NCBI GenBank assembly: GCA_945890485.1
Contig: CAMDCN010000006.1
Location: 124,001-188,000 of the forward strand
Reading direction: 5' to 3'
DNA: 64,000 nt
Source: Candidatus Sulfopaludibacter sp. SbA3
Lineage (GTDB): Bacteria; Acidobacteriota; Terriglobia; Bryobacterales; Bryobacteraceae
Both the position numbers and the translations under genes were made by a program. The notes beneath the pieces are model-generated. The model made no database searches, was not told the origin of the DNA, and saw only the letters and a program-made list of their open reading frames with translations. Shown in pieces: positions 6,602 to 62,832 of the stretch (the first letter of the stretch is position 1; each line of letters begins with the position of its first letter).

Positions 6602-6615
6602 ACGAAACGAACCCA
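6602..6615 (-). repeat. Copy 1 of recurring 14-mer TGGGTTCGTTTCGT (non-coding copy)
   Basis: Exact copy, read on the minus strand, lying between the receptor stop and the terminator stem. It is the only one of the five exact copies outside a coding region. See the finding on this word. Confidence 0.8.
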
Positions 6616-6655
6616 ACCGGCGGCAGAGCTTACCGGCTCTGCCGCCGGTTTTCTA
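6615..6655 (+). terminator. Rho-independent terminator of the TonB-dependent receptor gene
   Basis: A perfect 15-bp stem (6615-6629 with 6636-6650, arms beginning AACCGGCGGCAGAGC) with a six-base loop is followed by a T-rich TTTTCT-type tail on the plus strand. It sits 18 bases after the receptor stop and just before the convergent chemoreceptor gene. Confidence 0.93.
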
Positions 6656-8167
6656 TTTGCCGACCAGTTCGCCGAGTTGCTGTACCGAATGCCGCAGCCG
6701 GCTGTTCTGGTCCATCAATTCGTGGCTCGACGCCGCCGTCTGTTCAGAGTTCGCGGCGATCGACTGGGTCAGGCCATTAAGCTCCGTCATCGACTGCGTC
6801 GCCCCTTCCATTTGCGTCAACTGGCTCCGGCAGACTCCCGCCAGGGCGTCGACCACCTTGGCCACTTCTTGGCCTTTGCCGACAATGACGTCGAAATTTG
6901 CGGAGACCATTTCGCAGAGAGCCACGCCGCTCTCGGTTCGCTTCAACGCTTCCGAGATGCGGGTTTCGGTTTGCTGCGCCGCCTCTGTCGAGCGCATCGC
7001 CAGATTGCGTACTTCGTCGGCCACCACGGCAAACCCGGCGCCGGATTCGCCTGCCCGGGCTGCCTCCACGGCCGCGTTGAGCGCCAGTAGATTCGTCTGA
7101 AATGCGATGGCGTCCACTTCCTTGATAATGCTCGCGATTTCGCGGCTTGAGGCGCGGATCGCGTGCATCGCCTGCAGCATTTCGTCGATCTCTCGTTTGC
7201 CCTGCTTTCCCGCGGCGCCAGCATCGGAAGCCAAGTCGTGCGCGTCGTCAGCAATGCGGATCTTCTTCCGGGATGCTTCGATGCTGGTCTGCAGGTGGTC
7301 GGAACTTTGGGCCGTCACTGACGCTTGATGCGTCGCGCCTTGGGCCAGGCTTTGTCCGGCGCTGGCAATCTGCGCCGCAGCCGAGGCCGCGTCCTGCGCC
7401 ACCCGCTCCACATCCAGAATGACACTGCGGAGTGGTCCGTTAATCCAACGCTTGTTCAACCACCAGAAACCGATAATCACCAGGATCGTCACCGGGATCA
7501 TCCACGCCGAGATCCGCGCCATTCCCATCATGGCGAGTTGGTCCACCGGCGCCAGATCGCTCGTCAACAGAAACATTCCGTGGACCTCTCCGGCTCGCCA
7601 GCCTTCCATTGGAAAGCCCAGCATGTCCTTGCCGTCGCCTGTCGGGCTCGTCCCAGGGTCTCCGTGGCACGTCATGCAGTCGGCCGTCATCCGAACCGGC
7701 CGCGCATAGATTACCTGATTCTTCGCTTTGTCCACAGCAAAGAATTCGCTGATCTTGCCTTCATCGATCTGCCGCAGAATCTCGGCTTCGTCGGCCCGGG
7801 GAGCGTTCTTGGCATTCCGCGGATTGCTCCGCACTACGCGGAACTGGAATCCCTGCTCCTTCGCCGCTTGTTCCACGGCTCGCCACGCGGCGACCACGGG
7901 AACGGTCTGGTAGATCGTGGTCTGGCGGAAGTCCGTAGCGGCCTTCGCGTCGCCTGCCAGCTTTTCAATGTTAAAGGCACCGGCCCGCGTCAGCGACGAA
8001 ATCGATTCCCTCACGTTTTCGGCTTCAATCAGCGTACTGCGCATGGTCTCTCGCATCATGGAGGCGCCCTGCTCCTGAATGACCACCCGCACAACCAAAA
8101 ATGCCGTGCACGTCGCCAGCAAAATTCCGCCAGTGGCGGCCAGGATAATCTTCCTTCCGAGTACCAT
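6653..8167 (-). CDS. Methyl-accepting chemotaxis protein with haem-binding DUF3365/Tll0287-like sensor domain
   Basis: Membrane chemoreceptor of 504 residues. The order is: N-terminal membrane helix (about 7-30), periplasmic domain with a c-type haem motif CMTCH at 164-168, second helix (about 218-236), and a cytoplasmic signalling domain. The signalling hairpin tip ([20 protein letters not shown] and EVRNLAMRS) is intact. The haem motif within a domain of the Tll0287/DUF3365 sort suggests sensing of redox state, oxygen or nitric oxide. No HAMP domain is obvious. No CheA or CheW lies nearby, so it must signal to a distant pathway. The start ATG is preceded by GGAGAC. Haem attachment is inferred from the motif. 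Confidence 0.88.
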
Positions 8168-8283
8168 GAATAGTCTCCTTACCTAAGCAGGCATATCGCC
8201 CAAGGAAAAGGTTCCATGAATTTTAGAGAGTATTGATCGATTTTGCTAACGGTTTCCGCCTGTTCATGATAGAGAACTATAGT

Positions 8284-8784
8284 ATGAACTTTGCCTCCTT
8301 CCCTTCCGCCTCCCCCCAACTGGCCACTGGTCTTCCCATCGGTATGCAGATGGGGGGCTATCAGCCACCCCCGCAGGGCGGAGGCTATCCCCCTCCTCAA
8401 GGTGGCTACCCGCCTCCCCAGCAGCCGTATCAGCCGAGCAGCATGCCTAACAATGTCGCCGCCCTGCTCTGCTACGCGTTGGGGATTATTACCGGCATCC
8501 TCTTCCTGTTCCTGGAGCCCTACAATCGCGACCGCACGATCCGGTTCCACGCCTGGCAGTCGATCTTTACCTTCGGCGGTATGTTCGTGGCCCAGATTGC
8601 CTTGTCCATCATCGGCATCATTGCGACCAAGATCTTCGGCTTGCTGGGGCTGCTCGTCAGTCTGGTCGGCCTCGGCCTCAGCCTGGTAACGCTCGGCTTG
8701 TGGATCTTCCTCATGGTGAAGGCGTATCAGGGCGAGAAGTTCTCCCTGCCCATCGTTGGACCGATGGCGGAACAAAAAGCGTAG
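8284..8784 (+). CDS. Small membrane protein with Pro/Gly-rich N-terminus, DUF4870-like
   Basis: The N-terminal third is a flexible Gly-Tyr-Pro-rich stretch with repeats of the GGYPPPQ kind. The rest holds two or three membrane helices separated by YNRDRTIRFHAWQSI, which matches the DUF4870/Tic20-like families. Function is unknown. The frame is open upstream to 8233; the ATG at 8284 (MNFASF) is chosen because the stretch before it is short and not protein-like, but 8266 is possible. It diverges from the chemoreceptor gene. Confidence 0.72.
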   Translation: MNFASFPSASPQLATGLPIGMQMGGYQPPPQGGGYPPPQGGYPPPQQPYQPSSMPNNVAALLCYALGIITGILFLFLEPYNRDRTIRFHAWQSIFTFGGMFVAQIALSIIGIIATKIFGLLGLLVSLVGLGLSLVTLGLWIFLMVKAYQGEKFSLPIVGPMAEQKA

Positions 8785-8814
8785 CCAGATTCCTGGCCGA
8801 CACGTCTTTTTAAC

Positions 8815-9846
8815 GTGGTATTGCGCATTCCTGCACTCCTGACCCTCGCTCTGGGCCTTCTACAGGCCCAGAGCCCTTCTCCTTCGCTCCCCACGATTGG
8901 CATCATCGACTTCTTCGGTGTCCGCAAAGCGAGCGTCGAACGCCTGAAAAAGGCTCTTGGCGTCGCCGAGGGTGGCCCTCTGCCGCGGTCGAAGGCGGAG
9001 GTGGAAGACAAGATGGAGCTGATTAATGGCGTCGTCCGCGCCCGCCTTGAAGCGGTGTGCTGTGAGGATGGCAAGGCCGTTCTCTATATTGGGGTTGAAG
9101 AGCGCGGCGCCCCGGCGTTCAACTACCGCGAGGCTCCCGAGGGCACGGCGAAGCTCCCCGAGGAAGTGGTCGATGCCTACCTCGACTTCTTCGAAAAGCT
9201 GCAAACGGCGATCCGGCAAGGGGATATCGTGGAGGACCTGACGCGCGGCCACAGCATTATGGCGAACCGCGAGGCGCAGGCGGCGCAACTGAAGTTTCTG
9301 CCCTTGGCCGAAACTCACGAGGCGGTTCTCCGCGAAGTGCTCCGCAATAGCGAAGACGAGGTGGAGCGCGCGATGGCCGCCTATGTCATCGCCTACGTTC
9401 CGAAGAAGGCCACCATCGTGAACGACCTGCAGTATGCGCTGCAGGATCCCAACGACGGTGTCCGCAACAACGCCATGCGCTCGTTGCTTGGGTTGACCAT
9501 CCTCAGCGAAAAGCAGCCCAAACTTGGCTTAAAGGTCAGCCCTACCTGGTTCGTCGAGCAGTTGAACTCCCTCGTGTGGAGCGACCGCAACAAGGCCGCC
9601 ACGGCGCTCCTGACGTTAACGGAGAAGCGGGACGCGGGTCTGCTCGAGATGCTGCGCGACCGCGCTGTTGACTCGTTGATCGACATGGCCCGCTGGCGGC
9701 ACCTAAGCCACGCTCTGCCGGGCTACATTCTGCTCGGCCGGATGGCGGGTATCGAAGAGGCGCGGCTACAGGCGGCCTGGAGCGAGGGCAAGCACCAGCC
9801 GTTTAACGAAGAGATCATCCGCGAACTGACCCGGAAGAAGAAGTAG
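8815..9846 (+). CDS. Secreted protein with HEAT-like repeats, function unknown
   Basis: 343 residues starting at a GTG, with a signal peptide (MVLRIPALLTLALGLLQAQS). The first domain (GIIDFFGVRKASVERLKKAL) resembles a POTRA-type beta-alpha unit by eye, which is only a guess. The second half is helical with HEAT-like units (VLREVLRNSEDEVERAMAA; ALQDPNDGVRNNAMRSLLGL). Such repeats usually bind other proteins. Likely periplasmic. The plus-strand gene upstream ends 30 bases before it. Confidence 0.7.
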   Translation: MVLRIPALLTLALGLLQAQSPSPSLPTIGIIDFFGVRKASVERLKKALGVAEGGPLPRSKAEVEDKMELINGVVRARLEAVCCEDGKAVLYIGVEERGAPAFNYREAPEGTAKLPEEVVDAYLDFFEKLQTAIRQGDIVEDLTRGHSIMANREAQAAQLKFLPLAETHEAVLREVLRNSEDEVERAMAAYVIAYVPKKATIVNDLQYALQDPNDGVRNNAMRSLLGLTILSEKQPKLGLKVSPTWFVEQLNSLVWSDRNKAATALLTLTEKRDAGLLEMLRDRAVDSLIDMARWRHLSHALPGYILLGRMAGIEEARLQAAWSEGKHQPFNEEIIRELTRKKK

Positions 9847-9849
9847 CGG

Positions 9850-10695: not shown

Positions 10696-10747
10696 CCGAC
10701 CAATCTAGCAAGCTCACATTGCAAACGCGTAACGACAAAGGACGCCT

Positions 10748-12061: not shown

Positions 12062-12234
12062 CCGGCCGACGGCTGCTTGCGATCAAGCGGCACTTCGCAT
12101 TGGCAGCAGTCGCTGCAGCGCAGGCACTTGTGGCAACGGTGGAGTACACAGGTATCTTTGGTGCACCAAACGCAAAGGTCGCGCGAGGGATCACCACAGA
12201 TGGCGCACTCAAAGGTGGGAGCGTTGGGATTCAA
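12058..12234 (-). CDS. 58-residue cysteine-rich small protein (probable zinc-binding)
   Basis: A short gene easily missed because it uses a TTG start. The start lies in the sequence ATTGA, overlapping the TGA of the upstream gene, with AAAGAGG about nine bases before it. The product holds 11 cysteines in 58 residues: CAIC (10-13), CVWC (21-24), C29, C34, C37, C40, C43, C44 and C46, plus two histidines. The pairs suggest two or more treble-clef or ribbon-like zinc sites. It is the last gene of a minus-strand set (FecR protein, hypothetical, this). Function unknown. The Cys spacing and coupled start argue that it is real. Confidence 0.62.
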   Translation of the reverse strand: MNPNAPTFECAICGDPSRDLCVWCTKDTCVLHRCHKCLRCSDCCQCEVPLDRKQPSAG

Positions 12235-28162: not shown

Positions 28163-30073
28163 TTACAAAAGCCGGGCGCCCGTACGGGCATCGAAAATCA
28201 AAGAGGACTTCGGAGGGATCGTCACTTCCAGCGTACTACCATTTCGCAAATGCACCCGCGCCGTGCCCCCGTCCTTGTCATGAATGAGTAACAATCCGCC
28301 GCCCACGTGCACCGGCCGGTCGCCGTCGACATAGATATGCGCGCCTGCCGCTCGCAGCGCCTCCCGCCACTCGCCAGCGCCCTTGATCTCCTTCGTTCCC
28401 GGAGTCAGTTCGGCGGTGAACGCCGCACTCAGCCGCTCACCATCGCAGTAACCCGGCTTACCTTGAAAGATCACCTTCCGGCCTTTGTCGAGTAACTGGC
28501 TCCGGATCCAACGCCGCTGCTCCGCCGTCAGCAGCCAGGTGTTCGCGAACACGATCACGGCAAAGCGAGTCAGGTCCATCTTCGGCACATCGGCCAGATG
28601 AACTGTTTCAATCCCCGCACCGCTCCGCCACGCCTCGCCCATCGTTCGGTTCACCGCAATCGGATCCGTATACGGGTCTGTCTCCGCCGAATGCCCCGTG
28701 TAGTAGTACACCTCAGTATCGAACACAAACAGCACATCCCCGGCCGGTTCATAGGGGCGCTCGTGATACTTCTCGAGCAACGCCTTCAACTGGGTGATCT
28801 CCGCCATCAGCCGCCGGTCCATCCACCATCCGGCATGGTTCGCCGGGCCAAAATCATAGAACCAAAGCCCCATTCCGCGCGTATAGCTTTCGAGTACGTT
28901 CCGGCGAATCACCGCGATATCCGCCGGTACATCGGTTAGGTTAAACGCCGTATCGACGTTGTTCAGCCATTTCCATGACGGGGTCTGGTCCATCTCATCG
29001 AGAAACAGCTTCCCGTGGAAGCGGATGGACTCAATCAACGCCCGCGTAATGCCACTTCCGCCTAAGTCCCGGTAGTTCGCCCCATAAGCCTGCGGCGCGC
29101 TGAGATAGTCGACATCTTTCGCCGCCAACACCTTCTGTAGACTCAAGTGTCCGCCCGTTGCCTGTCGCGCGAACATCGAAAAGAAGTAACCATAGAAGGT
29201 CCCCGCCAGAATCGGCCGCGGCCAATTCTTTTTCACCACCCCGCAGAAGTAGATGATCAAATCCGCCACTAACTCCTGCTGGCAGCGATAGTACTCGATC
29301 ACGCGCTTCCGCTTCACCGGATCCCGGAAGTACCCATCGTCCACCGCCGCCCGCTCCGCCACGGTCGGCACCGGCCCGCCCAACAGCTTCTGCATCGGAG
29401 CGCTGGCGTCGGGTTCGTTTCGCATAAAGCCCCATTGGTGCCACTCGCCATACACCCCGCAACACACATGCAGCCCCGCCAGCGCCGCCCCCTCCGGCGT
29501 CTTGGCCAACCCCCGCAACAGCTCCACGGTCTTTGCCGTTGCCATCGCCTTCCACTTCTCGCTCGCCATGCTCACCCGCGGCGTCCGCCGCAGATCGTCC
29601 ATCAGAATCCGCACTGGCGTCGTCCGCTCAATCTTTTCGAGATCGCCATTTACGAAACGAACCCATTCCTCCGGATGCTTCTCCGCCCACCATCCCGGCG
29701 CATTCAAATGCCACCGGATCACGATCGCCGCCTCCGGGCAGGCGTCCAGTACTCCCCGCAGATGCCGCCGCACCGTGGCCAGATCCAGCGGCCCTTCCTT
29801 CGGCCAAACCAGCTCCAGGAACAGGTCAATCTGGAACAGCCGGAAGCCAGCCGTCGCAAACGCCCGCAAATTCCGCTGCGGTTCCTCCTCCCACGTCCAC
29901 CGCCCTCCGGGGCAGTCCGTCAACGCGTAAAAACACGCATACGTCGACTTCCCGTTCACGAACAAAGTGGGCTTGTTGTTCCACGTCCCCACCCGCGCCT
30001 CCACCGGCTTCCCTCCAGCCGCCGTCAAAACGGATAACGAACAAGCCTGCAGAAACGCGCGTCGATCGAGCAT
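28163..30073 (-). CDS. GH42-like beta-galactosidase-type glycoside hydrolase, exported
   Basis: About 636 residues. The leader MLDRRAFLQACSLSVLTAAG looks like a weak twin-arginine-type signal and fixes the start at 30073, although the frame is open to 30190. A TIM barrel follows (NLRAFATAGFRLFQIDLFLE; GLHVCCGVYGEWHQWGF; KLFLDEMDQTPSW) with acidic residues at barrel strand ends. A class I glutamine-amidotransferase-like domain (VIVFANTWLLTAEQRRWI) and a beta-sandwich tail complete the GH42 layout. The exact family and substrate are uncertain. It starts 11 bases after the Hsp70 gene. Confidence 0.72.
   Translation of the reverse strand: MLDRRAFLQACSLSVLTAAGGKPVEARVGTWNNKPTLFVNGKSTYACFYALTDCPGGRWTWEEEPQRNLRAFATAGFRLFQIDLFLELVWPKEGPLDLATVRRHLRGVLDACPEAAIVIRWHLNAPGWWAEKHPEEWVRFVNGDLEKIERTTPVRILMDDLRRTPRVSMASEKWKAMATAKTVELLRGLAKTPEGAALAGLHVCCGVYGEWHQWGFMRNEPDASAPMQKLLGGPVPTVAERAAVDDGYFRDPVKRKRVIEYYRCQQELVADLIIYFCGVVKKNWPRPILAGTFYGYFFSMFARQATGGHLSLQKVLAAKDVDYLSAPQAYGANYRDLGGSGITRALIESIRFHGKLFLDEMDQTPSWKWLNNVDTAFNLTDVPADIAVIRRNVLESYTRGMGLWFYDFGPANHAGWWMDRRLMAEITQLKALLEKYHERPYEPAGDVLFVFDTEVYYYTGHSAETDPYTDPIAVNRTMGEAWRSGAGIETVHLADVPKMDLTRFAVIVFANTWLLTAEQRRWIRSQLLDKGRKVIFQGKPGYCDGERLSAAFTAELTPGTKEIKGAGEWREALRAAGAHIYVDGDRPVHVGGGLLLIHDKDGGTARVHLRNGSTLEVTIPPKSSLIFDARTGARLL
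29652..29665 (-). repeat. Copy 2 of recurring 14-mer TGGGTTCGTTTCGT
   Basis: Exact copy inside the GH42-like gene, in gene sense, read as WVRFV. A near copy differing at the last base (GGGTTCGTTTCGC) lies at 29411-29423 in the same gene in the other direction, read as RNEP. Confidence 0.8.
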
Positions 30074-35270: not shown

Positions 35271-36956
35271 TTGACAGCCGTTCCGCCGCTCTGGGACACT
35301 AAGAAGTTACTCCCAGAACCTAAATTGACTCCTCCCCCCGATCCAAGCCTTCGCGAGATGCGCGAAGAGATTCGCCGCCGCCGTACCTTCGCCATCATTT
35401 CCCATCCGGACGCCGGCAAAACCACTCTGACGGAGAAGCTGCTGCTCTACGCCGGAGAGGTCGAGACCGCCGGCTCCGTCCGGCCAAAGAAGAACCGTGG
35501 CCATGCTACCTCCGACTGGATGGCCATGGAACAGGCGCGCGGCATCTCCATCACCTCCACCGCCCTCCAGTTCGAACACGGCGGCTGCCTCTTCAATCTC
35601 CTCGACACCCCGGGCCACCAGGACTTCAGCGAAGACACCTACCGCACCCTCACCGCCGTCGATAGCGCCGTCATGGTCCTCGATGGCGCCAAAGGCATCG
35701 AGCCGCAGACCCGTAAGCTCTTCGACGTCTGCCGCATGCGCCGCATCCCCGTGCTGACCTTCATCAACAAGATGGACCAGCCCGGCCTCGATCCCATGGA
35801 ACTCCTCGACGAGATCGAGCGCGTCCTCGGCATGGTCGCCGTCCCCTTCAACTGGCCGGTCGGCTATGGAAACCGCTTCCAGGGCGTTGTTGATCTCAAG
35901 ACCCGTCAACTCCTCCGCTACCAGCGCACCCTCGGCGGTCAGGTCCGCTCGGAAACCGAGGAGATGTCCATCGACGATCCCCGTTTCGCCGCTACCGTCG
36001 GCGAAGACAACGCCACCCAACTCGCCGATGCCTCCGCCCTGCTCGAAGTCGCCATCCCGCCCTTCGATCGGGAACGCTTCCTGCTTGGCCTGCAAACCCC
36101 GGTCTTCTTCGGCAGCGCCCTGAACAACTTCGGCGTCGACTGCTTCCTCGAAGCGCTCACCCACCTCGCGCCGTCGCCGATGCCTCGCCTCAGCAAGGAC
36201 GGCCTCATCGAAGCCGACTCGCCCGAATTCTCCGCCTTCGTCTTCAAGATCCAGGGCAACATGGACCCCATGCACCGCGACAGCATGGCCTTCCTCCGCA
36301 TCTGCTCCGGCCGCTTCGACCGGGACATGCTCGTCCACCATCCGCGCCAAGGCAAGAAGTTCCGCATGACGCGCCCCCACCGGCTCTTCGCCCGCGACCG
36401 CCAGGGCCTCGATATGGCCTTCGCCGGCGACGTCGTCGGCGTCGTCAACCCCGGCATGTTCATCATCGGCGATACGCTCAGCACCAATCCCGAGATCGAG
36501 TTCGAACGCATCCCCAGCTTCCAGCCGGAGTTCTTCGGCGTCCTCCGCAACACGGACATGAGCCGCACGAAGCAGTTCCGCAAAGGCATCACCCAGATGG
36601 CCGAAGAGGGCGTCGTGCAGGTTTATTACGATCCCGACGGCGTCCGCCGCGAACCCGTCCTCGGCGCGGTGGGCCGCCTGCAGTTCGACGTCGTCGAATC
36701 GCGGCTCGCGCAGGAGTATGGCGTCCATGCCACGCTCGACACGCTTCCCTATATCTGCGCCCGCTGGCCCCGCGGCACCCCCGAGGCACTCGCCAAAGTC
36801 CGCTGGCCAAGCTCCGGCGTCGTGCGTTTCCGCGACCAGTTCGATCAGCTCGTCTGCCTCTTCACGACGAAGTGGGAGTTGCAGTCGATCTCGCGCGACT
36901 ACCCCGACGTCCGCTTCCACGAAACCAACGAAGTGCCGTTAACGCGGACGAGCTAA
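35271..36956 (+). CDS. prfC: Peptide chain release factor 3
   Basis: GTPase that recycles RF1 and RF2 after termination. G1 is ISHPDAGKTT, G3 DTPGHQDF, G4 NKMDQPG, and the later domains (FVFKIQGNMDPMHRDSMAFL; GAVGRLQFDVVESRLAQEYG) are those of RF3. The open frame begins at a TTG at 35271, but the ATG at 35358 (MREEIRRRRTFAI) gives the usual N-terminal length and may be the true start; neither has a clear ribosome binding site. The upstream 29 residues are Pro-rich. The last 18 bases overlap the convergent CHAD gene. Confidence 0.95.
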   Translation: MTAVPPLWDTKKLLPEPKLTPPPDPSLREMREEIRRRRTFAIISHPDAGKTTLTEKLLLYAGEVETAGSVRPKKNRGHATSDWMAMEQARGISITSTALQFEHGGCLFNLLDTPGHQDFSEDTYRTLTAVDSAVMVLDGAKGIEPQTRKLFDVCRMRRIPVLTFINKMDQPGLDPMELLDEIERVLGMVAVPFNWPVGYGNRFQGVVDLKTRQLLRYQRTLGGQVRSETEEMSIDDPRFAATVGEDNATQLADASALLEVAIPPFDRERFLLGLQTPVFFGSALNNFGVDCFLEALTHLAPSPMPRLSKDGLIEADSPEFSAFVFKIQGNMDPMHRDSMAFLRICSGRFDRDMLVHHPRQGKKFRMTRPHRLFARDRQGLDMAFAGDVVGVVNPGMFIIGDTLSTNPEIEFERIPSFQPEFFGVLRNTDMSRTKQFRKGITQMAEEGVVQVYYDPDGVRREPVLGAVGRLQFDVVESRLAQEYGVHATLDTLPYICARWPRGTPEALAKVRWPSSGVVRFRDQFDQLVCLFTTKWELQSISRDYPDVRFHETNEVPLTRTS

Positions 36957-37781
36957 CATCTCCCGCACGGATTGGCGGAACGCCGGGTCCCGGTAACGGT
37001 CGCGCACCGGCGGCCACCACGCTGCGAACGCCTCTTCTTCGGCCTGCAGCACCTGAGCCAGGCTCGGCCAAACCTCCCCAACCGTCTCGCGCAGCACCAC
37101 CCGGTCCTGCAGTCCGCCGAGTTCATCCTGAATCGTCTTCAGCTCCGCGATCCATGCCTGCAACTCCGGGCCGTAGTGATCGGCGAAGAACTCAGCCTGA
37201 TAGCGGATTGCCTTCACACGCTTCCGCAGGTCATGCAGAATCTCGCCGGACTCGGCGTCCCAGCCCGCGTGAAGAAACAAACGGCATCCCAGCGGCAGCA
37301 GCAGATCCGGCAGCGCCGGCCGCAACGGCAACTCCGCAGCCGTCCGGTAGGCTGGACATTTTATCCATTCACGCAACGAATTCTGCAGTGTTTCATAGCG
37401 CCGGCCCCGCAGTGTGTCCCGCAAACCGGCGAATTGCTCGTCACGCTGTTGGTGCAGTGCGCGAAGCACGGCTTCATCCAAACCTTCCAGCTCGGACAAT
37501 TTGGCTAGCAAAACGTCCAGATCCCGCACTCCTCCCAACCGGCGGCTAATCTTGCTGATCGTCCGGTCGTTGGCTTCGTTTGGCAATCGGATCACGAATC
37601 CGAACGTCTCGATGGCTGCCCGCATGCGCCGCATTCCCACGCGCATCTGATGCAGCGGCTCCGGATCCTTATCCCGGAGCACGGCCTTCTCTTCCTTCGA
37701 GAAGTGCCGGAGATTCCGGCGGACGACCCGGCGGGCGAACGAACCCAAAGTGTCCTTGGGTTCGTTTCGTCGGGCCGTCAC
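36939..37781 (-). CDS. CHAD-domain protein (polyphosphate-binding)
   Basis: 280 residues, all helical. Conserved histidines and basic residues include EPLHQMRVGMRRMRAAIETF and EILHDLRKRVKAIRYQAEFF, the two halves of a CHAD domain. CHAD proteins bind inorganic polyphosphate. No CYTH domain is attached. The gene begins 14 bases after the TonB-dependent receptor stop on the same strand. A 14-mer repeat copy covers codons 4-8 (RRNEPK). Confidence 0.92.
   Translation of the reverse strand: MTARRNEPKDTLGSFARRVVRRNLRHFSKEEKAVLRDKDPEPLHQMRVGMRRMRAAIETFGFVIRLPNEANDRTISKISRRLGGVRDLDVLLAKLSELEGLDEAVLRALHQQRDEQFAGLRDTLRGRRYETLQNSLREWIKCPAYRTAAELPLRPALPDLLLPLGCRLFLHAGWDAESGEILHDLRKRVKAIRYQAEFFADHYGPELQAWIAELKTIQDELGGLQDRVVLRETVGEVWPSLAQVLQAEEEAFAAWWPPVRDRYRDPAFRQSVREMLARPR
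37757..37770 (+). repeat. Copy 3 of recurring 14-mer TGGGTTCGTTTCGT
   Basis: Exact copy at the start of the CHAD gene, antisense to it, read by the gene as RNEPK near the N-terminus. Confidence 0.8.
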
Positions 37782-43328: not shown

Positions 43329-44706
43329 GAACATCCTTCGCCATGGCGTCGGCGCCGTGGCAGCCGAATGGCTGCTGCAGCGCGATCTGCTCGCCCAAGC
43401 CCGCACGAATCCGCTGGCCGCTAAGACGCCGCATTTTGAGCCGAAGGCCAAGGCGGTGATCTTCCTGTTCATGGTCGGCGCGCCGAGCTCGATCGACATG
43501 TTCGATCCCAAGCCGGCGCTTGAGAAGTACGCGGGGCAGAAGTTGCCCGAAAGCTACGGCAAGATCACGAGTCAGTTCACGGTGGGTGATACGCCGTTGC
43601 TCCCTTCGCCGTGGAAGTTCAACCGGCATGGGCGGAGCGGGTTGCCGGTCTCGACGCTGTACTCGAATGTGGCGAAACACGTTGACGACATCTGCTTCGT
43701 ACGGAGTTTCTATACGGAAAGCGTCGTCCACGCGCCGGCGATGTATCAGGTGCACACGGGCCGCGTCCTGACCGGCTATCCGTCCATGGGTTCCTGGGTG
43801 ACCTATGGCCTCGGCAGTCCAGCGGACAACCTGCCGGCCTACGTCGCGATGCCGCAGCCTGAAGGCACGCCGGAAGGCGGTACGCCGTGCTGGGGTTCGG
43901 GCTTCCTGCCTGCGGTCTATCAAGGCACGCTGTTGCGTAGCGGTCCTTCGCCCATTTTGCATCTGAAGAATCCGGGGGATGTCACCGCCCAGCGGCAGCG
44001 CTCGACGCTTGACCTGCTGCAGAAGATGAACGATCTCGACACGCAGCCGGAAGACTCTGAGATGGCCGCCCGCATCGCCAGCTACGAACTCGCCTTCAAG
44101 ATGCAGAGTGCGGCGCCGGAGGCGGTCGATATCATGAAGGAGTCCGAGGAGACGCGGAAGCTCTACGGCATCGACAAGCCGCAAACGCGCGACTTCGGCA
44201 CCCGCCTACTGCTCGCCCGGCGGCTGGTCGAACGCGGCGTGCGGTTCGTGCAGGTGTACTCCGGCGGCGGCCCGGTGAGCATTCAGTGGGACGCGCATTC
44301 GAACCTGGTATCGAACCACGAGAAGATGGCGGGCTTGACGGACCAGCCGATTGCGGCCCTGCTGCAGGATCTGAAGGCGCGCGGCTTGCTCGACGATACG
44401 CTCGTCATCTGGGGCTCGGAGTTCGGGCGTTTGCCGATGTCGGAAAGCGGCAACGGCCGCGACCATAACCCGCACGGCTACACGATGTGGTTTGCCGGTG
44501 GCGGGGCGAAGGGCGGGACCGTGGTCGGCGAGACCGACGAACTCGGCCTGCGCGGTATCGGCGAGCGCTATCACATGCGCGACTTCCACGCGACCATGCT
44601 GCACATGATGGGACTCGACCAGCACAAGCTCTTTTATCTGCACAATGGGCGGAATGAAAAGCTGACTGACTTCGGCGGGAATTTGATTACGAAGCTCTAC
44701 ACCTGA
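43306..44706 (+). CDS. DUF1501 protein with twin-arginine signal
   Basis: 466 residues. The N-terminus has [19 protein letters not shown], a twin-arginine export signal. The body has [55 protein letters not shown] and [17 protein letters not shown], the alkaline-phosphatase-like core of the sulfatase-related DUF1501 family. It partners the overlapping PSD1 gene. Export by Tat suggests a folded, metal-bearing product. The last ten bases overlap the convergent HAF-repeat gene. Confidence 0.9.
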
Positions 44707-45776
44707 TTGCGTCGCCAGCGGCCAAAAGCGACGCACGCAAGGCCTGCCACCACTAGGCCAACCGTGCCGGGTTCGGGAACGTTGGAGACGGCCGCGGGTT
44801 CGAAGCCGGAGACCAGCGGCGGCGGGGCAATCGGATTCAACAGAACGGCCATTTGCTCGCCGTTGTAGAGCCCGGTGCCAACGATCTGCCCGCTATCGTT
44901 GATGCCGTAGGCGGCGAGGAGCTGCCAGCCGGAGTTGGGGGCGACGAGGTCGTTCAGGTTCCGCATCTGGCCATTGGCATACACGAAGGCAGCCATTGTC
45001 GCATCTCCTGTGACCCAGGACGAACCCACCACGTTGCCCGCTTGATTGATGCCATAGGCGTAGCTGGCCACGCCTCCCAGCGTGCCGAGCCCGGTCATCG
45101 AGCCGTTGTAGTAAAGGAACGCCTCCAGGTATCCATTCGCCCGCGTCGAGTGCCCCACTACTTGCTTGGCGTCGTTCAGCGCCGTCGCGTAACTCGAGTT
45201 GCCGCCGAGGGTTCCGATCTGCTGCAGTTGCCCGTTTGACGAAACGAAGCCAATCATGTCCCCGGCGGCCGTCTCGCCGTACCCGGCAACCTCGCCGGTT
45301 GCGTTGATGCCGTAGGCCGATGCCCAATTGCCGCCGGCCAGCGTGCCGAGGTACTCCACCTGACCCCCGACGGTGCGGAAGGCTTGCCCGTTCTGCATGC
45401 CCGCCACTTGGCCCGACCCGTTAATCGCCATCGCGTTGCCGTCGCCCTGGCCGATCGCTCCGGGAGCGCCGTTCTGCCACTGCACCGCGGTTCCGTTCGC
45501 TGAGCCGACAACGGTCCCCGCGTTATTGATGCCGCTCGCGTACTGCTGGGTGCTGGCCGGAAGCCCGGCCAGTTCGATCAACGATCCGCCATTCCAAACG
45601 AACCCGCGGAAGTCGCCCTGTACATTGGCGCTGGTGCCAACGACAACGCCATTGTTACTGATGGCATAGGCCGTCGCCGGGCCTCCGAGATTGCCTAAGC
45701 CGAAGATCTGATAGGAGGGCACGGCCCATAGAGCATTGCAGCTCAACACAGCAAACAGGAGGTTCAAAACACGCAT
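44697..45776 (-). CDS. HAF-repeat extracellular protein with PEP-CTERM sorting signal
   Basis: About 359 residues. Signal peptide [18 protein letters not shown], then six or seven HAF-type repeats such as [40 protein letters not shown] and [20 protein letters not shown]. The C-terminus is [20 protein letters not shown] followed by RWRRNQV: the PEP motif, a membrane helix and a basic tail, the signal read by exosortase. This implies an exosortase elsewhere in the genome. The start at 45776 has GGAGGGG upstream; the frame is open to 45914. Confidence 0.87.
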
Positions 45777-45879: not shown

Positions 45880-47295
45880 ATGGCGAAACTTGTGACTTCC
45901 AAGCTGCTTCGCACCCTGGCCCTGCTCGCGATCTATTTAGGGATCACCTATCTATGGCCCCCGCCCGCCGGCATTAAGGAAACCGATTGGCGACTGTTCG
46001 CGGTTTTCGTGGCGACAGTGAGCGGCTTGATCCTGCAGCCGCTGCCGGGGGGCGCGGTGGTGCTGATCGGCGTGACGGCCTCGGCGGTGGTGGGCGGGCT
46101 GAGCATCAAAGGCGCGTTGGAGGGCTACTCCGATTCGACGGTGTGGCTGGTGATGGCGGCATTTTTCATCTCCCGCTCCCTGCTGAACACGGGATTGGCG
46201 CGTCGCATCGCGTTGATTTTCGTGCGGGCGTTTGGGTCGACTTCCCTGGGTGTCACGTATGCGTTAGCGCTCAGTGATGTGACGCTGGCGACGATCATTC
46301 CTTCAAACGGCGCACGGTCGGGCGGCGTGACGTTGCCCATTGTCCGGTCGATTGCGGAGCTTTACGGATCCTTGCCGGGAGAGTCCGCGGGGAAGTTGGG
46401 CACCTACCTGATGCTGGCGGTGTACCAGTCGATCTGTGTGAGCGCGGCAATGTTCCTGACCGGTCAGGCCTCGAATCCGCTCGCGGCGCAGATGGCCGGG
46501 CAGCAAGGGTTCCCGATCACGTGGACCAGTTGGTTTATTGCCGGGGCCGTGCCCGGAGCGCTGTCGCTTGCGATCATCCCGCGTGTGGTGATGTGGATGT
46601 CGCCGCCCGCGATCCTGAAGACGCCGGAGGCCCGGGTGTTCGCCTCGTCGGAACTGGCGAAGATGGGCCCCATGTCGACGGCCGAGCGGATTCTGGCACT
46701 GATTTTTGTTGGCGTTTGTGGATTGTGGGCCACGAGCGGTTGGCACAAAATGGACATTACGCTGACGGCGCTGCTGGGCTGCGCGGCGCTACTGCTGACG
46801 GGCGTGTTGAGCTGGGAAGACGTGAAAACGGAGACGGCCGCGTGGGATATCTTCATCTGGTACGGAGGACTGCTGCGTCTGGGCCGGGCATTGAATGACG
46901 GCGGGGTGACGACGGCCTTCGCCAAGAGTATCGGGGCGCAGTTCACTGACTCCGGCTGGGTGCTGCTCTTCATTGTGGCGCTGCTGATCTACTTCTATGC
47001 GCACTACTTCCTGGCCAGCATCACGGCGCACCTGTTGGCGCTGTACCCGCCGTTTCTGGCGCTGCTGATCCTGAAGGGCGCGCCGCTGGGCTTGGTCGTC
47101 TTTGCCTTCGCCTGCTTTACGAACTTCTCGGCCGGGCTGACCAACTATGGAACGACGCCAAGCCCCATGTTCTTCGCCCACGGCTACGCGACGTTTCCAC
47201 TCTGGTGGCGCGTTGGGTTCGTTTGCTCGCTCGTGAACATCGCCATCTGGTCGACGTTCGGTTTCGGCTGGTGGAAGCTGCTCGGGATCTGGTAA
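45880..47295 (+). CDS. DASS-family anion/dicarboxylate symporter (CitT-like)
   Basis: 471 residues with about 12 membrane helices. Family features are the IIPSNGARSGGVTLPI segment, FLTGQASNPLA (the SNT-type anion motif region), and NFSAGLTNYGTTPSPMFFA in the second repeat, all as in the CitT/SodiT1 group that moves malate, oxoglutarate, citrate or tartrate. Start at the ATG at 45880; the frame is open to 45736 but would overlap the divergent gene. Its stop codon directly abuts the stop of the convergent glycosyltransferase gene. Confidence 0.88.
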   Translation: MAKLVTSKLLRTLALLAIYLGITYLWPPPAGIKETDWRLFAVFVATVSGLILQPLPGGAVVLIGVTASAVVGGLSIKGALEGYSDSTVWLVMAAFFISRSLLNTGLARRIALIFVRAFGSTSLGVTYALALSDVTLATIIPSNGARSGGVTLPIVRSIAELYGSLPGESAGKLGTYLMLAVYQSICVSAAMFLTGQASNPLAAQMAGQQGFPITWTSWFIAGAVPGALSLAIIPRVVMWMSPPAILKTPEARVFASSELAKMGPMSTAERILALIFVGVCGLWATSGWHKMDITLTALLGCAALLLTGVLSWEDVKTETAAWDIFIWYGGLLRLGRALNDGGVTTAFAKSIGAQFTDSGWVLLFIVALLIYFYAHYFLASITAHLLALYPPFLALLILKGAPLGLVVFAFACFTNFSAGLTNYGTTPSPMFFAHGYATFPLWWRVGFVCSLVNIAIWSTFGFGWWKLLGIW

Positions 47296-57362: not shown

Positions 57363-57391
57363 ATTATAGACTGAACAATCATTCAATAGAA
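57363..57391 (-). promoter_or_regulatory. TetR promoter with operator in the spacer
   Basis: Minus strand: -10 TATAAT (57363-57368), weak -35 TTCTAT (57386-57391), 17-base spacer. The near-palindrome TGAATGATTGTTCA (57372-57385; five of seven pairs match) fills the spacer. The -10 ends seven bases from the GTG, so transcripts would begin at the start codon. Confidence 0.55.
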
Positions 57392-57960: not shown

Positions 57961-58013
57961 GGTGGCGACAGGCACGCCGCGGACGGCCGGCGTGCCTGTC
58001 TACGGTGGGGTGC

Positions 58014-61000
58014 CTAGAAGATGATCTTCAGTGCAATTTGCATGTTACGCGGTTCGCCGAAGCCGAGTCCAGGAGCGGAGCCGCCGTTGCGCGTGTTGGT
58101 GATGACGCCGAAGCCTGCCGTGCTGGCGAGCGACGTGCCCGGGTTGGCCCAGTTGGTCCGGTTGGTGATATTGAAAATCTCAAACCGGAGCTGCGTGGTG
58201 ATCCGCTCGGTGATGGGAGTTGCCTTGAACACCGAGAAGTCGATGGAGCCGAAGCCAGGGCCATAGATGGCATTGCGGCCGAGGTTGCCGAACGTGCCCT
58301 GGGCCGGACGGGCGAAGGCGGCCGGGTTGAACCAGCGGAGCGTGCGGACGGCGGGATTCTGCACGACGCCGGAGAACGGGTCGCCGACCAGGTCGACGCG
58401 GTCGCGGGACTCGCCCGTGCCGCTGACGTTGGTACCGGCGAGGATGTTGAGCGGCGAGCCGCTGTGGGCGGTCATGAGCGCGTTGACGGTCCAGCCTTTC
58501 GTCAGTAGCGGAAGCGCTTTCCCAAAGACCGGAAGGTCGTAGGAGACGAAGCTCGTCAGGATGTGGCGCACGTCGAACGTTGAACTGCCGCGTTCGTTGG
58601 CGAGGTCGTTTGAGTTCGTTGGCATGTTGTTGCGCACATCCGAGGTGTTGTCGATCGCGTGGCCCCAGGTGTAGTTGAAGTTCGCCGTGAGGCCCTTCTT
58701 GAGGGACTGCCGGAGCGAAGCCTGGAACGAGTGGTAGTTGCTGTTCGTTGCGGACTCCAACTGATTGATCGCGGCAAGGTCCGGGTACTGCCCGTAGTAT
58801 GGCCTCCTCAATTGTGCGCCGGCGACGACGCCGGGTGTCGGCATGTTGATGTTCCGCAGGACGCTGAGTTTACGGCCGCCACTGGCGACGTAGCCTGCTT
58901 GCAACAACGTGGAGCCAGTCAATTGATGTTGCACGTTGAAGTTGTAGTTCATCACGTAGGGGATGCGGAAGTTCTGGTCGACCGCGTAGGCGCCAAACGG
59001 CGGGCGGGGCTGCGCGGTGCCGAAGATTGGCTGATTCAAAACGATGTCGACGCCGGATAGGGCGATGGAGTACACCGGCGACGGGCCGCCAGGATTGGCA
59101 TGGACGCCCGCCGAACCGCCGTTCGGAGCGCCGGTGTTGGCGATGATGAAGTTCAGCGGCGGCACATCGTAGAAGAAACCAAAGCTGCCGCGGAGAACGG
59201 TTTTGCCGCCCTTGATGGGCGTATAGGCAAATCCAACGCGGGGCGCCAGGTTGTTCAGATCGCGGCGGTAGAGGGTGTCAAGGCCATTGCCCGGTCCCAC
59301 GAAACCACGGTCCGGCACGAAGGTGGTGATGCTGTTCTTGGCGTCGTGCAGGGGGCCATGATAGGTGTAGCGGACGCCGAAGTTGAGGTTGAACTGCGAG
59401 TTGACCTGCCAATTGTCGTGGGCCCACCAGTCGAACGAGTTCTGGTAGTAGTCGCGCTGCAGTTGGCCGCGGGTGATCTGGGCGCCGTTGGCGTTCGATG
59501 TGAAACCGGCCAGAAAGTCGGCCAGCGCACGCTGGTTGGCGTTGAGGGAAGAGTCCGTCGCCCAAGGGCCGCGGGCGCCGTCGAAGACGAAGCGTCCGCG
59601 TTTGTTGGTGTCGTAGAAGACATCAAGACGCGCGCGGCGGTACTCGCCGCCGACTTTGACCTGATGCCGGCCGTAGGAGAGCGACAGGTTGTCGACGAGG
59701 TGACCAGTGGTGTCGATGCGGCCGAGTGGCTGGGTCGGGCCAACGCCGGCGAAGCCGTTGATGGTCGTCGTGGGAGCACCGCTCAAGCTTGCTTCGGTCA
59801 CTCCGGTGTTGAGCCCGAGCGCCACCGGGTTGGCGGAGATATCGGAATCGTTGAACACCTGCAGAAAGAAGTTCACGCCGGCCGTAATCTGGTTGACGAT
59901 GCGTGGGCCAAAGACGCTGCTCTGCACGATGGAGACGTTGTGCATACGGCTGGGAGCGACCTGGAAGTACTCGCGATACGGCGAACCTGAGGCAGCGGCC
60001 TGTTTTCCAGTACCGCCGAAATAGCGTCCGGCGATGGTGTGATTGTCGTTGAACCGATGATCGATTTTGACGATGCCGTTGTAGGAGTCGTAGTCGTTCT
60101 GGTCGGTGGAGAGGAAGTTGTTCAAAGTGGCCGGGGTGCTATCGAAGCGGTTGGGCCAGAGGGAACGCAGGTTGAGAGCGACCTGGTTCACGGGAACCCC
60201 ATAGCGTGCAAGAATGTTGCGGGCGTCGGCGAACCAGGCGTCCGAAGGATGAGTGCCCTGGACGGCGTTGTTGGCGATGGCTACCTGCGCTTCTCCGGTT
60301 GCAAAGAAGAAGGTGCGGTTCTTGATGATGGGTCCGCCGACGGAAAAGCCGTACTGATTGGACCGGACTACGCGGGGCTTGGCGCCGGCGGGCTGCAGCG
60401 GCGACGGCTCGGCGAATGCCTCGTTGCGATTGAAGTAGTACAGCGAACCATGCAGATCATTCGTGCCGGACTTGATGACCAGGTTGACCGATGCGCCGCC
60501 GTTGCGGCCAGCTTCGGCGCTAGCATTGGTCTGCACGGAGAACTGGTCGATGGCTTCGACGGGCAGCAAGGTGCCGGCGATGCCGGAGACGCCGCCCTGG
60601 TTGACGGCGGAGGTGTTGTGGAAGGCGTCGTTGTTGTCGGCGCCATCGATCTGGTAGTTGTTGCCGGAGGTGCGCATCCCATTGACTGAGCTTGAGGCCG
60701 GAGAAACGCCGGGCGTTAGCTTCAGCATCTGGCGGAAGTCGCGGCCGTTCATGGGCAGGTCGGCGACAAGTTTGGGGCCGACGACGCCGACGAGCGCGGA
60801 GGAAGTAGTCTCCAGGCTGACGGCTTGGGCGGAGACTTCAACGGTAGACGCCTGCTGGGCGACGCCGAGGGCGATGATGACGTTGCTCGTCTTCGAGACG
60901 GCAACTTCGACATTTTCGTACCGCTTGGTTTCGAAACCGGTTTGCGAGACGACGATCGTGAACTTCCCAACAGGAAGTTCGGCGAACAGAAACTCTCCGG

Positions 61001-61172
61001 TGGCGGAGGCGAGGGTGGAACGGGTGAACCCGGTGGATGGGCTTTCGAGTTTTACGGCGGCGCCGGGAATGGAGGCGCCTGTCGCGTCCTGCACGAGGCC
61101 GGCAATGTTGCCGCGAAAGGTCTGCGCCGAAAGCGCGGAAAGAGAAAGCAATAGGAGCGCAAGTGCTCGCAT
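58014..61172 (-). CDS. TonB-dependent receptor, Oar-like (third)
   Basis: 1,052 residues. Signal peptide MRALALLLLSLSALSA, CarboxypepD_reg-like domain (GLVQDATGASIPGAAVKLES), plug (LPMNGRDFRQMLKLTPGV; GRNGGASVNLVIKSGTNDLH), barrel, and C-terminal MQIALKIIF. The signal peptide fixes the start at 61172; the frame is open to 61235. An inverted repeat lies about 50 bases upstream. It may be transcribed with the upstream FAD oxidoreductase or from its own promoter. Ligand unknown. Confidence 0.93.
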   Translation of the reverse strand: MRALALLLLSLSALSAQTFRGNIAGLVQDATGASIPGAAVKLESPSTGFTRSTLASATGEFLFAELPVGKFTIVVSQTGFETKRYENVEVAVSKTSNVIIALGVAQQASTVEVSAQAVSLETTSSALVGVVGPKLVADLPMNGRDFRQMLKLTPGVSPASSSVNGMRTSGNNYQIDGADNNDAFHNTSAVNQGGVSGIAGTLLPVEAIDQFSVQTNASAEAGRNGGASVNLVIKSGTNDLHGSLYYFNRNEAFAEPSPLQPAGAKPRVVRSNQYGFSVGGPIIKNRTFFFATGEAQVAIANNAVQGTHPSDAWFADARNILARYGVPVNQVALNLRSLWPNRFDSTPATLNNFLSTDQNDYDSYNGIVKIDHRFNDNHTIAGRYFGGTGKQAAASGSPYREYFQVAPSRMHNVSIVQSSVFGPRIVNQITAGVNFFLQVFNDSDISANPVALGLNTGVTEASLSGAPTTTINGFAGVGPTQPLGRIDTTGHLVDNLSLSYGRHQVKVGGEYRRARLDVFYDTNKRGRFVFDGARGPWATDSSLNANQRALADFLAGFTSNANGAQITRGQLQRDYYQNSFDWWAHDNWQVNSQFNLNFGVRYTYHGPLHDAKNSITTFVPDRGFVGPGNGLDTLYRRDLNNLAPRVGFAYTPIKGGKTVLRGSFGFFYDVPPLNFIIANTGAPNGGSAGVHANPGGPSPVYSIALSGVDIVLNQPIFGTAQPRPPFGAYAVDQNFRIPYVMNYNFNVQHQLTGSTLLQAGYVASGGRKLSVLRNINMPTPGVVAGAQLRRPYYGQYPDLAAINQLESATNSNYHSFQASLRQSLKKGLTANFNYTWGHAIDNTSDVRNNMPTNSNDLANERGSSTFDVRHILTSFVSYDLPVFGKALPLLTKGWTVNALMTAHSGSPLNILAGTNVSGTGESRDRVDLVGDPFSGVVQNPAVRTLRWFNPAAFARPAQGTFGNLGRNAIYGPGFGSIDFSVFKATPITERITTQLRFEIFNITNRTNWANPGTSLASTAGFGVITNTRNGGSAPGLGFGEPRNMQIALKIIF

Positions 61173-61223
61173 TATTAACACCTCAAGAAGGGATTGGGGT
61201 GCAGCGAGACTGGAGCTGCGTGA

Positions 61224-61253
61224 CTTATCGATCAATCACGGGCAATCGATAAG
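61224..61253. promoter_or_regulatory. Perfect 9-bp inverted repeat upstream of the third receptor
   Basis: CTTATCGAT (61224-61232) and ATCGATAAG (61245-61253), 12 bases apart, in the 110-base gap between the FAD oxidoreductase stop and the receptor start. A further TTATCGA lies at 61263-61269. There is no T-run, so an operator is more likely than a terminator. Confidence 0.5.
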
Positions 61254-61281
61254 GGACGAGATTTATCGAAGTGTAGCATCC

Positions 61282-62832
61282 CTACGCTTTCGGCTGGGGA
61301 ATCGGGTTCATGGCGAGGACTTGGCCGTCGGACTCCAGTCGGGCGCGGAGCGGGGCGTAAGGGAGCGCCTGGAGGGTCGACTTCGTGGCGAGGGCCTGCG
61401 CGGCGGCGGTGGCGGCGGCTTGGCCGAGGAGGAAGAAGGTCCACTCTAAACGGACTGCGCCGTAGGCGACGTGGCTACTCGATAAGCACGTTGGCGTAAT
61501 GAGGTTGGTGCATTCGTTGGCGCGAGGGAGCAGCGCGCGATAGGAGATGGGAAACGCTCCCCAGTCGTCGCCGCCGAAGACGAAGCCTTCGTTGTAGGCG
61601 GCGCCGTCTTTGATGATGCGGCGGACGTGGTGCGTGTCCGGTGGCCAGCAAGAGATGCCGACAGGATCGGCGATGGAGGGTTGGCCGATGCGGCGAGTAT
61701 GGTGTTCCGTGATGACGAAATCGGAGACGAGGCGGCGGGCGTCGCGGACGTAGAACTGGCGCGGCCAGCCGGCGTTGTCGGGGAACTCGTCAGCGCAAAC
61801 GCCCCAGTCTTTCCAGTGGCCGCCGAATGCCGGGTCGTTGGCCAATAGGTAGGCAAGGCCCTGGGTGAAGTGGAGATGTTCGGCGTATACGCGGCGGCGA
61901 ACGGCAGGGGAGCCGGCCGGGTAGGCGTAGTTCATGCCATAGAGATTGGCGGAGAGGTCGTGCCAGCTTCCCTGGTCGGTCTTGCCATTGGGCAGGTTGG
62001 CGTTGGGGCGGAAGAGTTGGCCGCCGGCCTTCACGTAGCGGTAGTAGATCTCGTATTGCTTGCGGTCGAAGCCTAGCGGTTTTACGAAAGGAACCCGATT
62101 GGCTGGGTTCTTCGTCAGGCACATGCGGAAGCAATAGCCCTGTAACCGGTGGTCGCCTTCGCCGGGTTCGCCAATGGGTTCGTTTCGTATTGTTGGGATG
62201 ACGCCGGAGGAGGGTACGCCAGGGCGCCAGTAGGGGTCGACGCGGACCTCAAAGTTACGATAGGTGTTTTCGGTGCGGATACCGTTTTTCGTTTCGCCGT
62301 ATTGGGAGTTGGCCTCGCGGCCGATGACGGTGCGGCAGCCGGTGGCGTGGAGCAGGTCGCCTTCGATGGAAGCGTCGATGAACTGGGAGGCGCCGATGCG
62401 TTGGCCGTTTTCGAGCGTGATGTGGGTGAGGAGCGGGCCGGTCTTGGTGGCCGAGCGAAGCTGGGCGTTGAGCAGGTAGGGGACGTCATGCTCCTTGAGC
62501 CAGGCGAGAAGCACGCGTTCGGCTACGCTCGACTCGAACTTGTAAATGGGTTCGTTTCGTCCATAGGCGGCGCCGATGCGGCGGTAGAACTCCGCGGCCA
62601 GGCCGCCGACGGCGGGCGAGTTGCGGAACCAGTGGTTGTCGAGGTCGGAGCTGCCGAGGCCCTCGACGGTGATGCCGCCGAGATGGCGGCTGGGTTCGAT
62701 AAGCAGCACCGAACGGCCCATTCTGCGGGCTTGAATGGCGGCGGTGATGCCGGCGGCGGAAGCGCCGTAGACGCAGATGTCGGGCTGCTGGGTTTGCGCG
62801 GCGAAGGCGAGGAGCAACTCGCGGCGGGTCAT
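61282..62832 (-). CDS. FAD-dependent oxidoreductase (FAD_oxidored family), exported
   Basis: 516 residues. The N-terminus MTRRELLLAFAAQTQQ is a weak twin-arginine-like leader. The FAD site is ICVYGASAAGITAAIQARRM, followed by LLIEPSRHLGGITVEGLGSS and FIDASIEGDLLHATG. This is the PF12831-type layout seen in many Acidobacteriota and Planctomycetota. Substrate unknown, often predicted sugars. The ATG overlaps the stop of the small upstream reading frame as ATGA. Two exact copies of the 14-mer repeat lie in it. Confidence 0.9.
   Translation of the reverse strand: MTRRELLLAFAAQTQQPDICVYGASAAGITAAIQARRMGRSVLLIEPSRHLGGITVEGLGSSDLDNHWFRNSPAVGGLAAEFYRRIGAAYGRNEPIYKFESSVAERVLLAWLKEHDVPYLLNAQLRSATKTGPLLTHITLENGQRIGASQFIDASIEGDLLHATGCRTVIGREANSQYGETKNGIRTENTYRNFEVRVDPYWRPGVPSSGVIPTIRNEPIGEPGEGDHRLQGYCFRMCLTKNPANRVPFVKPLGFDRKQYEIYYRYVKAGGQLFRPNANLPNGKTDQGSWHDLSANLYGMNYAYPAGSPAVRRRVYAEHLHFTQGLAYLLANDPAFGGHWKDWGVCADEFPDNAGWPRQFYVRDARRLVSDFVITEHHTRRIGQPSIADPVGISCWPPDTHHVRRIIKDGAAYNEGFVFGGDDWGAFPISYRALLPRANECTNLITPTCLSSSHVAYGAVRLEWTFFLLGQAAATAAAQALATKSTLQALPYAPLRARLESDGQVLAMNPIPQPKA
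62175..62188 (+). repeat. Copy 4 of recurring 14-mer TGGGTTCGTTTCGT
   Basis: Exact copy inside the FAD oxidoreductase gene, antisense to it, read by the gene as RNEPI. A one-mismatch copy lies at 62084-62096 in the other direction. Confidence 0.8.
62547..62560 (+). repeat. Copy 5 of recurring 14-mer TGGGTTCGTTTCGT
   Basis: Exact copy, 372 bases from copy 4 in the same gene, also read as RNEPI. Confidence 0.8.

Follow-up and report, generated by a model that had tools for sequence, protein, structure and literature searches.

A 14- to 18-bp asymmetric word recurring in a Candidatus Sulfopaludibacter genome and in several phyla: a candidate protein-read DNA signal

Words that mark DNA for uptake have been described in two bacterial families and occur in excess outside genes, according to the part of the source cited here (PMC1939737), and in Neisseriaceae they number from 943 to nearly 6000 per genome among the figures drawn from PMC3630211. 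Other short sequences that recur in bacterial chromosomes are the HIP1 word of cyanobacteria and the repetitive extragenic palindromic (REP) elements, the latter defined in the cited portion of PMC3733652 as GTAG- and CGTC-tagged palindromes. This work deals with a 14-base word, TGGGTTCGTTTCGT, found in five exact copies in a 64,000-nucleotide stretch of the acidobacterium Candidatus Sulfopaludibacter sp. SbA3 (assembly GCA_945890485.1, contig CAMDCN010000006.1, positions 124,001 to 188,000; hereafter the window). Its abundance, its placement and its fate in relatives indicate that it is very probably a functional signal at the DNA level, read probably by a putative sequence-specific DNA-binding protein. 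Genomes, contigs and loci are designated below by G, C and L numbers, G000 being the genome that contains the window.

Genome-wide excess and placement of the word

The 7.13-Mb genome G000 contains 58 exact copies of TGGGTTCGTTTCGT (30 on the plus and 28 on the minus strand; 35 contigs), and the reversed control none. A sister word with C at position 4, TGGCTTCGTTTCGT, accounts for 59 further copies, again with a reversed control of zero, which gives 117 copies with either G or C at that position (S-exact copies, comprising the G form and the C form), 56 on the plus and 61 on the minus strand. At most one mismatch to TGGGTTCGTTTCGT is found at 191 places (control, 1), and 59 of the 133 one-mismatch places are the C form. 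In a 463-kb sample of G000, mostly picked around known copies and consequently biased in density, a fifth-order Markov model predicts 0.013 copies of TGGGTTCGTTTCGT and 23 are seen; scaled by us to the whole genome, the expectation is about 0.2. The genome-wide count against a Markov model, proposed as a check in the initial annotation, came out clearly on the side of an excess. The eight 14-mers that reach six or more copies in the sample all derive from this word family, and in the over-representation lists of 10- and 12-mers of the relatives G009 and G017 the same word ranks top.

A position weight matrix built on the sample yielded the motif wTGGSTTCGTTTCGTaaww, with 64 sites at a score of 13 or more and none in the reversed sequence. 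Both the AAWW extension 3' of the 14-base word and the alternation of G and C at position 4 had been overlooked in the initial annotation; as recognised now, the word has 14 to 18 letters. Reversed controls gave at most one match per genome in every pattern search. Further over-represented sequences were noted in the genus, namely the palindromes GCTATATAGC (G000 and G009) and GCTATAGAGC (G017), and also TGCTATAGAG (G009 and G017).

Gene positions were taken from a simple purpose-written caller, with no annotation used. Sixty of the 64 motif sites lie inside predicted genes (34 antisense, 26 sense), and since the coding fraction of the sample is 0.895, genes are not avoided. All six reading frames are used, giving peptides such as TKRTQ, DETNP, RNEP, WVRFV, LGSFR and GFVS. 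The recurrence of RNEP in the window is what a shared peptide would give, and chance or codon use might be invoked as well, but the variety of frames and peptides, the 58 copies against about 0.2 expected, the existence of intergenic copies and the nearly empty reversed controls make the probability of such an origin negligible; chance, codon bias and a shared peptide were rejected on the counts, the Markov model and the six-frame use. A Pfam scan of 20 of the 42 listed site-bearing genes returned two DNA glycosylases, the others being of mixed function or without match, so no functional bias of the host genes can be claimed.

A role at the RNA level is argued against by the similar use of sense and antisense orientations. 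Rfam at its gathering threshold detected no structured RNA family in 13 loci, and a structured RNA was discarded on these two grounds. On folding, one alphaproteobacterial copy forms a hairpin (z -2.6), and two array stretches are unremarkable (z -1.5 and -0.4).

The distribution along the chromosome bears on one of the alternatives to DNA uptake, a site for chromosome organisation or maintenance, where a nucleoid, segregation, occlusion or repair protein would occupy roughly one hundred to a few hundred places, with fitness depending on there being enough sites, so that these would be conserved in whatever gene they fall. Neighbouring S-exact copies less than 2 kb apart are over-represented (11 against 3.8 expected, P 0.001), as such a site could produce. 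Against it, motif strand is unrelated to local GC skew (28 of 56 agree; Spearman P 0.52), which speaks against roles like those of Chi, KOPS or Ter, and copies are evenly spread over the six contigs of known length (22.7 S-exact copies per Mb; chi-square 4.1, 5 df), with half that density (11.9 per Mb) in the other 4.1 Mb of this draft assembly. Moreover, matS, parS and Noc sites are palindromic, and the word is not. A polar replication or recombination word was rejected for want of a relation to GC skew; a strand bias about the replication axis, suggested for examination in the initial annotation, is not seen with this proxy, origin and terminus not having been located. An apparent strand switch at about 338-389 kb among the 15 S-exact copies of contig C1 was given no weight because the other contigs are mixed.

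Birth and conservation of copies in relatives

Orthologues of two window genes were taken from relatives, and further loci were compared as directional site rows, some places being counted from both sides. The core contains a gap in two of 123 such rows (one against G006, one against G004), and 121 are gapless. Because orthologues with and without the word almost always align through it in this way, the alignments indicate that in this genus the word arises and decays by point substitution and not by insertion. The initial annotation had offered several origins, and the evidence points to those in which the word is a chromosome-organising, uptake-type or protein-binding site; the mark of a mobile process, offered alongside them, is contradicted in the genus by the scarcity of gaps.

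Conservation was followed position by position in the syntenic block shared with G009, on positions 1 to 100,000 of a G009 contig chosen for its orthologues of both window genes, the exact copies on it being already known. The ten invariant positions of the word are kept in G009 at 8 of the 11 alignable G000 copies (2 of 13 were not alignable), compared with 29% in phase-matched control windows (P 0.004). In the opposite direction, all seven alignable G009 copies keep them in G000 (1 of 8 not alignable; P 2e-4). Larger comparisons gave 13/17, 9/11, 7/10 and 7/7, figures which lean toward conservation since several G001, G009 and G017 loci were included because they bear the word. Changes cluster at positions 4, 11, 12 and 14, where copies within each genome also vary most. 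Since invariant positions are mostly kept and changes favour the degenerate ones, the word is, judged from these alignments, a DNA-level signal under selection or drive. The initial claim that the constraint acts on DNA rather than protein is borne out by the use of six frames and by orthologue conservation above that of the phase-matched windows.

The exact copy at 29652 illustrates how the word may be born. Of the orthologues compared, G001 alone has it, and those of G009, G016, G017, G010 and G006 depart from it at several places in the core; counted against the G000 word, core matches rise from 6 to 9, 11 and 14 of 14 in G006, G017, G009 and G001. Its origin by substitution involves amino-acid changes: where the word is present, W replaces C or L, and F replaces Y. 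Position 4 also shifts between genomes, the ratio of G to C being 58:59 in G000, 23:115 in G009 (Fisher P 2e-8) and 13:36 in G016, a change between congeners that may be drift resembling the dialects of uptake words.

Birth by point substitution, amino-acid changes included, and a patchy occurrence among close relatives would also be expected if a modification enzyme together with mismatch repair pushed the sequence toward the word as a by-product. Such a mutation or repair bias is nevertheless quite improbable: at 14 to 18 asymmetric bases the word is far longer than known methyltransferase words, and a push without function explains poorly why invariant positions are mostly kept and degenerate ones change. 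Its precedent is HIP1, as presented in the cited part of PMC4390886.

The patchiness is evident at several levels. The G form was found in 14 of the 41 genomes of the first relatives search, with 70 copies in G001 and 23 in G009, and ten of 18 congeners have none or one. In the host's family, one or more S-exact copies occur in 56 of 121 genomes, and five or more in 22 of 121 (reversed controls, at most 1).

Some arrangements were noted in individual genomes. G009 has an array of six C-form copies at C10:39351-40198, five of them inside locus L110 (L110:7351-7928), and behind four of these five stands CTAACGAA, with which a partial copy in inverted orientation begins. The congener G004, without the G form, has other repeats, GAGCCGTGCTACC and GTCCCCTGGCTA, and contains the core GGGTTCGTTT 9 times where 0.6 would be expected. 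At L099:4050-4260 (LNFE01000047.1) two copies are part of a long inverted repeat whose loop is short, possibly an assembly fold-back.

In the window itself, ten matches with at most two mismatches are found, where 100 shuffles averaged 0.46 and never exceeded 3:

6602-6615, minus strand: exact copy, intergenic, 5 bp past the stop of a TonB-type outer-membrane protein gene; extended word TTGGGTTCGTTTCGTAATT
29410-29423, plus strand: weak form CGGGTTCGTTTCGC, reading MRNEPD in antisense; G006, G004 and G015 show no more than one core change
29652-29665, minus strand: exact copy, sense in gene 28163-30004(-), reads WVRFV
37571-37584, plus strand: variant TGGCTTCGTTTGGC, lying antisense in gene 36939-37781(-); neither G009 nor G017 keeps it
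37757-37770, plus strand: exact copy, close to the start of gene 36939-37781(-) and antisense to it, RNEP; 14/14 in G009 and G017
45239-45252, minus strand: C form TGGCTTCGTTTCGT, sense in gene 44697-45776(-), reads IGFVS
47214-47227, plus strand: weak form TGGGTTCGTTTGCT; 10/14 in G009, not conserved
62084-62097, minus strand: weak form CGGGTTCCTTTCGT; 10/14 in G001 and 11/14 in G009, not conserved
62175-62188, plus strand: exact copy, reading RNEP antisense to FAD_oxidored gene 61282-62832(-)
62547-62560, plus strand: exact copy within that same FAD_oxidored gene, also antisense and reading RNEP; 14/14 in G001

All five exact copies stand where the initial annotation had placed them, with RNEP antisense in three, WVRFV sense in one and one intergenic, as it had read them; its near copies at 29411, 45240 and 62084, given for a 13-base core, fall inside the 14-mer matches 29410-29423, 45239-45252 and 62084-62097, and the copy at 37571-37584 had escaped it. 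Five exact copies in 64 kb are a local excess, the genome mean being about 0.5. The copy at 62175 is kept 14/14 in G001 and G009 and 10/14 in G006. The one at 62547 has a sole core change in G009, G to C at the degenerate position 4, despite the protein change P to A, and the copy at 45239 is kept in G009 apart from T to C at position 14. The gene around this last copy (44697-45776) matches DUF3466 and has a PEP-CTERM-like tail scoring slightly below cut-off. No alignment to G009 could be obtained for the copy at 6602 in the syntenic-block comparison; on inspection, a strong inverted repeat adjoins it at 6616-6650 and resembles a terminator of the TonB-type gene. The weak forms at 47214 and 62084 are probably chance matches. 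That at 29410 is doubtful because G004 and G015, genomes with no G-form copy or a single one, keep it too; protein constraint alone is possibly enough there.

Occurrence outside the genus

A scan of about 85,000 species genomes for TTGGSTTCGTTTCGTAAT detected at least 102 stretches, where chance alone should give about 15 in the entire collection by our own estimate at even base composition. The 16-mer TGGSTTCGTTTCGTAA was recounted in 41 genomes chosen as word-bearing, with reversed controls of zero in all 41. It is single-copy in 26 of them; some of these must be chance, and any one of them may be either chance or a remnant. It reaches 52 copies in G443 (unclassified bacterium AM-2014_bin-0333), 16 in the Isosphaeraceae genome G441, 11, 7 and 6 in the Alphaproteobacteria G436, G437 and G438, and 10 and 6 in two other Acidobacteria, G451 and G444. 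The 18-bp form also recurs in Alphaproteobacteria, in an Isosphaeraceae planctomycete, in an unclassified genome and in other Acidobacteria. In a sample drawn evenly from the host's phylum, the 16-mer was present in 2 of 396 genomes, one of them the window's own.

Placement differs between these genomes. In the set of loci from outside the genus (in which L269 repeats L045, and L262 repeats L065), motif sites are intergenic at 53/53 in G443, 32/32 in G441, 11/11 in G436 and 7/7 in G437, and 10/16 sites in G444 and 5/10 in G451 fall within predicted genes. In the Alphaproteobacteria, several copies are situated after stop codons or separate convergent genes. Most G443 loci hold two or three copies with spacings near 75 and 107-109 bp, and in these arrays the words are among the best conserved blocks of a consensus that was anchored on a copy selected for the word. 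G441 has tandem arrays with a 64-65-bp period and one array with 36-45-bp spacings. Such intergenic arrays of near-fixed spacing, like the identity of the word in several phyla, which a conserved DNA-binding domain would give, are compatible with a chromosome site, as is the conservation at fixed orthologous places within the genus.

Copies in G437, G438, G443 and G441 are placed within longer dispersed or tandem intergenic repeats, and this favours a further alternative, in which the word is the relic or target of a mobile element and its copies were inserted within short mobile repeats. In other phyla, copies may have spread by a mobile route. As an account of the word it is improbable, however, given the nearly gapless alignments through coding copies in the genus and the presence of only two word-bearing stretches in viral contigs, about the chance level by a rough estimate of our own; viral carriage was dismissed on the latter count. 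The six JABHAA01 loci (L045, L046, L048, L061, L090 and L118) carry their copies inside a longer dispersed repeat, and in several of them a second word, GTGACAGTATACTAATTA, or a near-form of it follows, at L045 as a hairpin.

Interpretation and relation to described systems

The mode of action that is tentatively preferred is DNA uptake, by analogy with known uptake words, and its probability falls somewhat short of even; as a mode of action it stays a conjecture, with a chromosome-organising site close behind. One sequence-specific DNA-binding protein would recognise the motif in double-stranded DNA, whichever way it is oriented. Sites would arise in ordinary sequence through point mutation and would be kept or multiplied since DNA carrying the word is favoured: fragments bearing it would be bound, taken in more readily during natural transformation and then recombined back, and near-matches would thereby be pulled toward the word. 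Taken as a whole, this statement, a double-stranded signal read by one protein with uptake as the leading mode, is possible but not quite probable. Uptake is preferred over chromosome organisation because of the random orientation of the word, its placement in genes throughout, the AT-rich flank, the position shift between congeners and the graded approach to the word at 29652 among relatives; the first four of these are features reported for uptake words (PMC3630211, PMC1939737). A chromosome site, with its points for and against given above, is rather unlikely, though it is the strongest of the alternatives.

Matches to ComEC above the family cut-off were found in 12 of 13 genomes of the genus, word-poor ones included, and, in a second set of ten genomes, also in both G016 and G017. 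In G000 comEC lies at C20:49778-51823; its contig carries seven S-exact copies, and the closest of them (C20:53940) is about 2 kb from the gene.

Several observations weigh against uptake. Congeners without the G form also possess ComEC, and in the second set of ten genomes four have matches over the cut-off and five have weaker ones below it; G438, with its six copies of the 16-mer, gave no ComEC match at E 0.001 or better, though its assembly may be incomplete. The density in G000, 117 S-exact copies in 7.1 Mb, is far under that of Neisseriaceae uptake words. Given the coding fraction, about 7 of the 64 motif sites should fall between genes and 4 do, so that no intergenic excess like that of uptake words is seen. 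In the syntenic block, 3 of 11 copies are not kept in the relative, and 29652, 37571 and 62084 are cases of this kind. The all-intergenic arrays of G443 and G441 are atypical of uptake words, and the word is identical across phyla, whereas a self-recognition word should differ between them. Because it is too sparse, lacks an intergenic excess, is identical across phyla and occurs in G438 without a ComEC match, the word is not filed as a DNA uptake sequence (DUS) or uptake signal sequence (USS).

A broader proposal is about as probable as not, leaning slightly to doubt: one DNA-reading system, ancient or passed between phyla, would recognise one and the same asymmetric word of 16 to 18 bp in Acidobacteria, Alphaproteobacteria, Planctomycetes and others and, through selection or molecular drive, write it by point substitution into arbitrary genome positions, changing proteins too. 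If true, this would be a new kind of shared genomic signal and not a species-specific uptake word. Few long signal words are known to build up across whole genomes independently of gene content, and position-by-position conservation in genes together with identity in unrelated phyla points to a DNA-binding factor, possibly part of a shared DNA-exchange or chromosome-organising system in little-studied bacteria. The literature collection searched held no paper containing TTCGTTTCGTAA, papers matching 12-mers of the word were off-subject by title, and topical searches returned nothing describing it.

Among described systems, the DUS of Neisseriaceae and the USS of Pasteurellaceae share most with the word: a non-palindromic core with a less conserved, partly AT-rich flank, occurrence on both strands without orientation bias, genic copies in several frames together with intergenic ones, a dialect-like change of one position between congeners, and strong over-representation of a short word and its near forms (here 58 + 59 copies, and 191 places at one mismatch or less). 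They differ in density, which approaches one per kb in those families and is not reached here, the word being about 50 to 150 times sparser per Mb in exact forms than the Neisseriaceae figures available from the cited source. In G000 it also lacks their intergenic excess, and it forms ordered arrays in some genomes. A lineage-specific word with dialects inside one family is not matched either, since Acidobacteria, Alphaproteobacteria and Isosphaeraceae share the same word.

With parS, matS, Noc, SlmA, KOPS and Chi sites, the word has in common that conserved DNA words lie in genes and are read by protein. It is longer than Chi and KOPS and without their strand bias, and unlike parS, matS and Noc sites it is asymmetric and not visibly confined to one chromosome region. 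HIP1 resembles it in genome-wide over-representation and in patchiness between relatives but, as described in the part of the source cited, is an 8-bp palindrome tied to methyltransferases, whereas the word is asymmetric and 14 to 18 bp long. REP elements, to the extent covered by their source, are likewise short repeats in many copies, intergenic in some genomes; in the window's genus the word differs from these and from elements of the miniature inverted-repeat transposable element type in having no palindrome, in the genic placement of 60 of 64 sites, and in an apparent origin by substitution rather than insertion.

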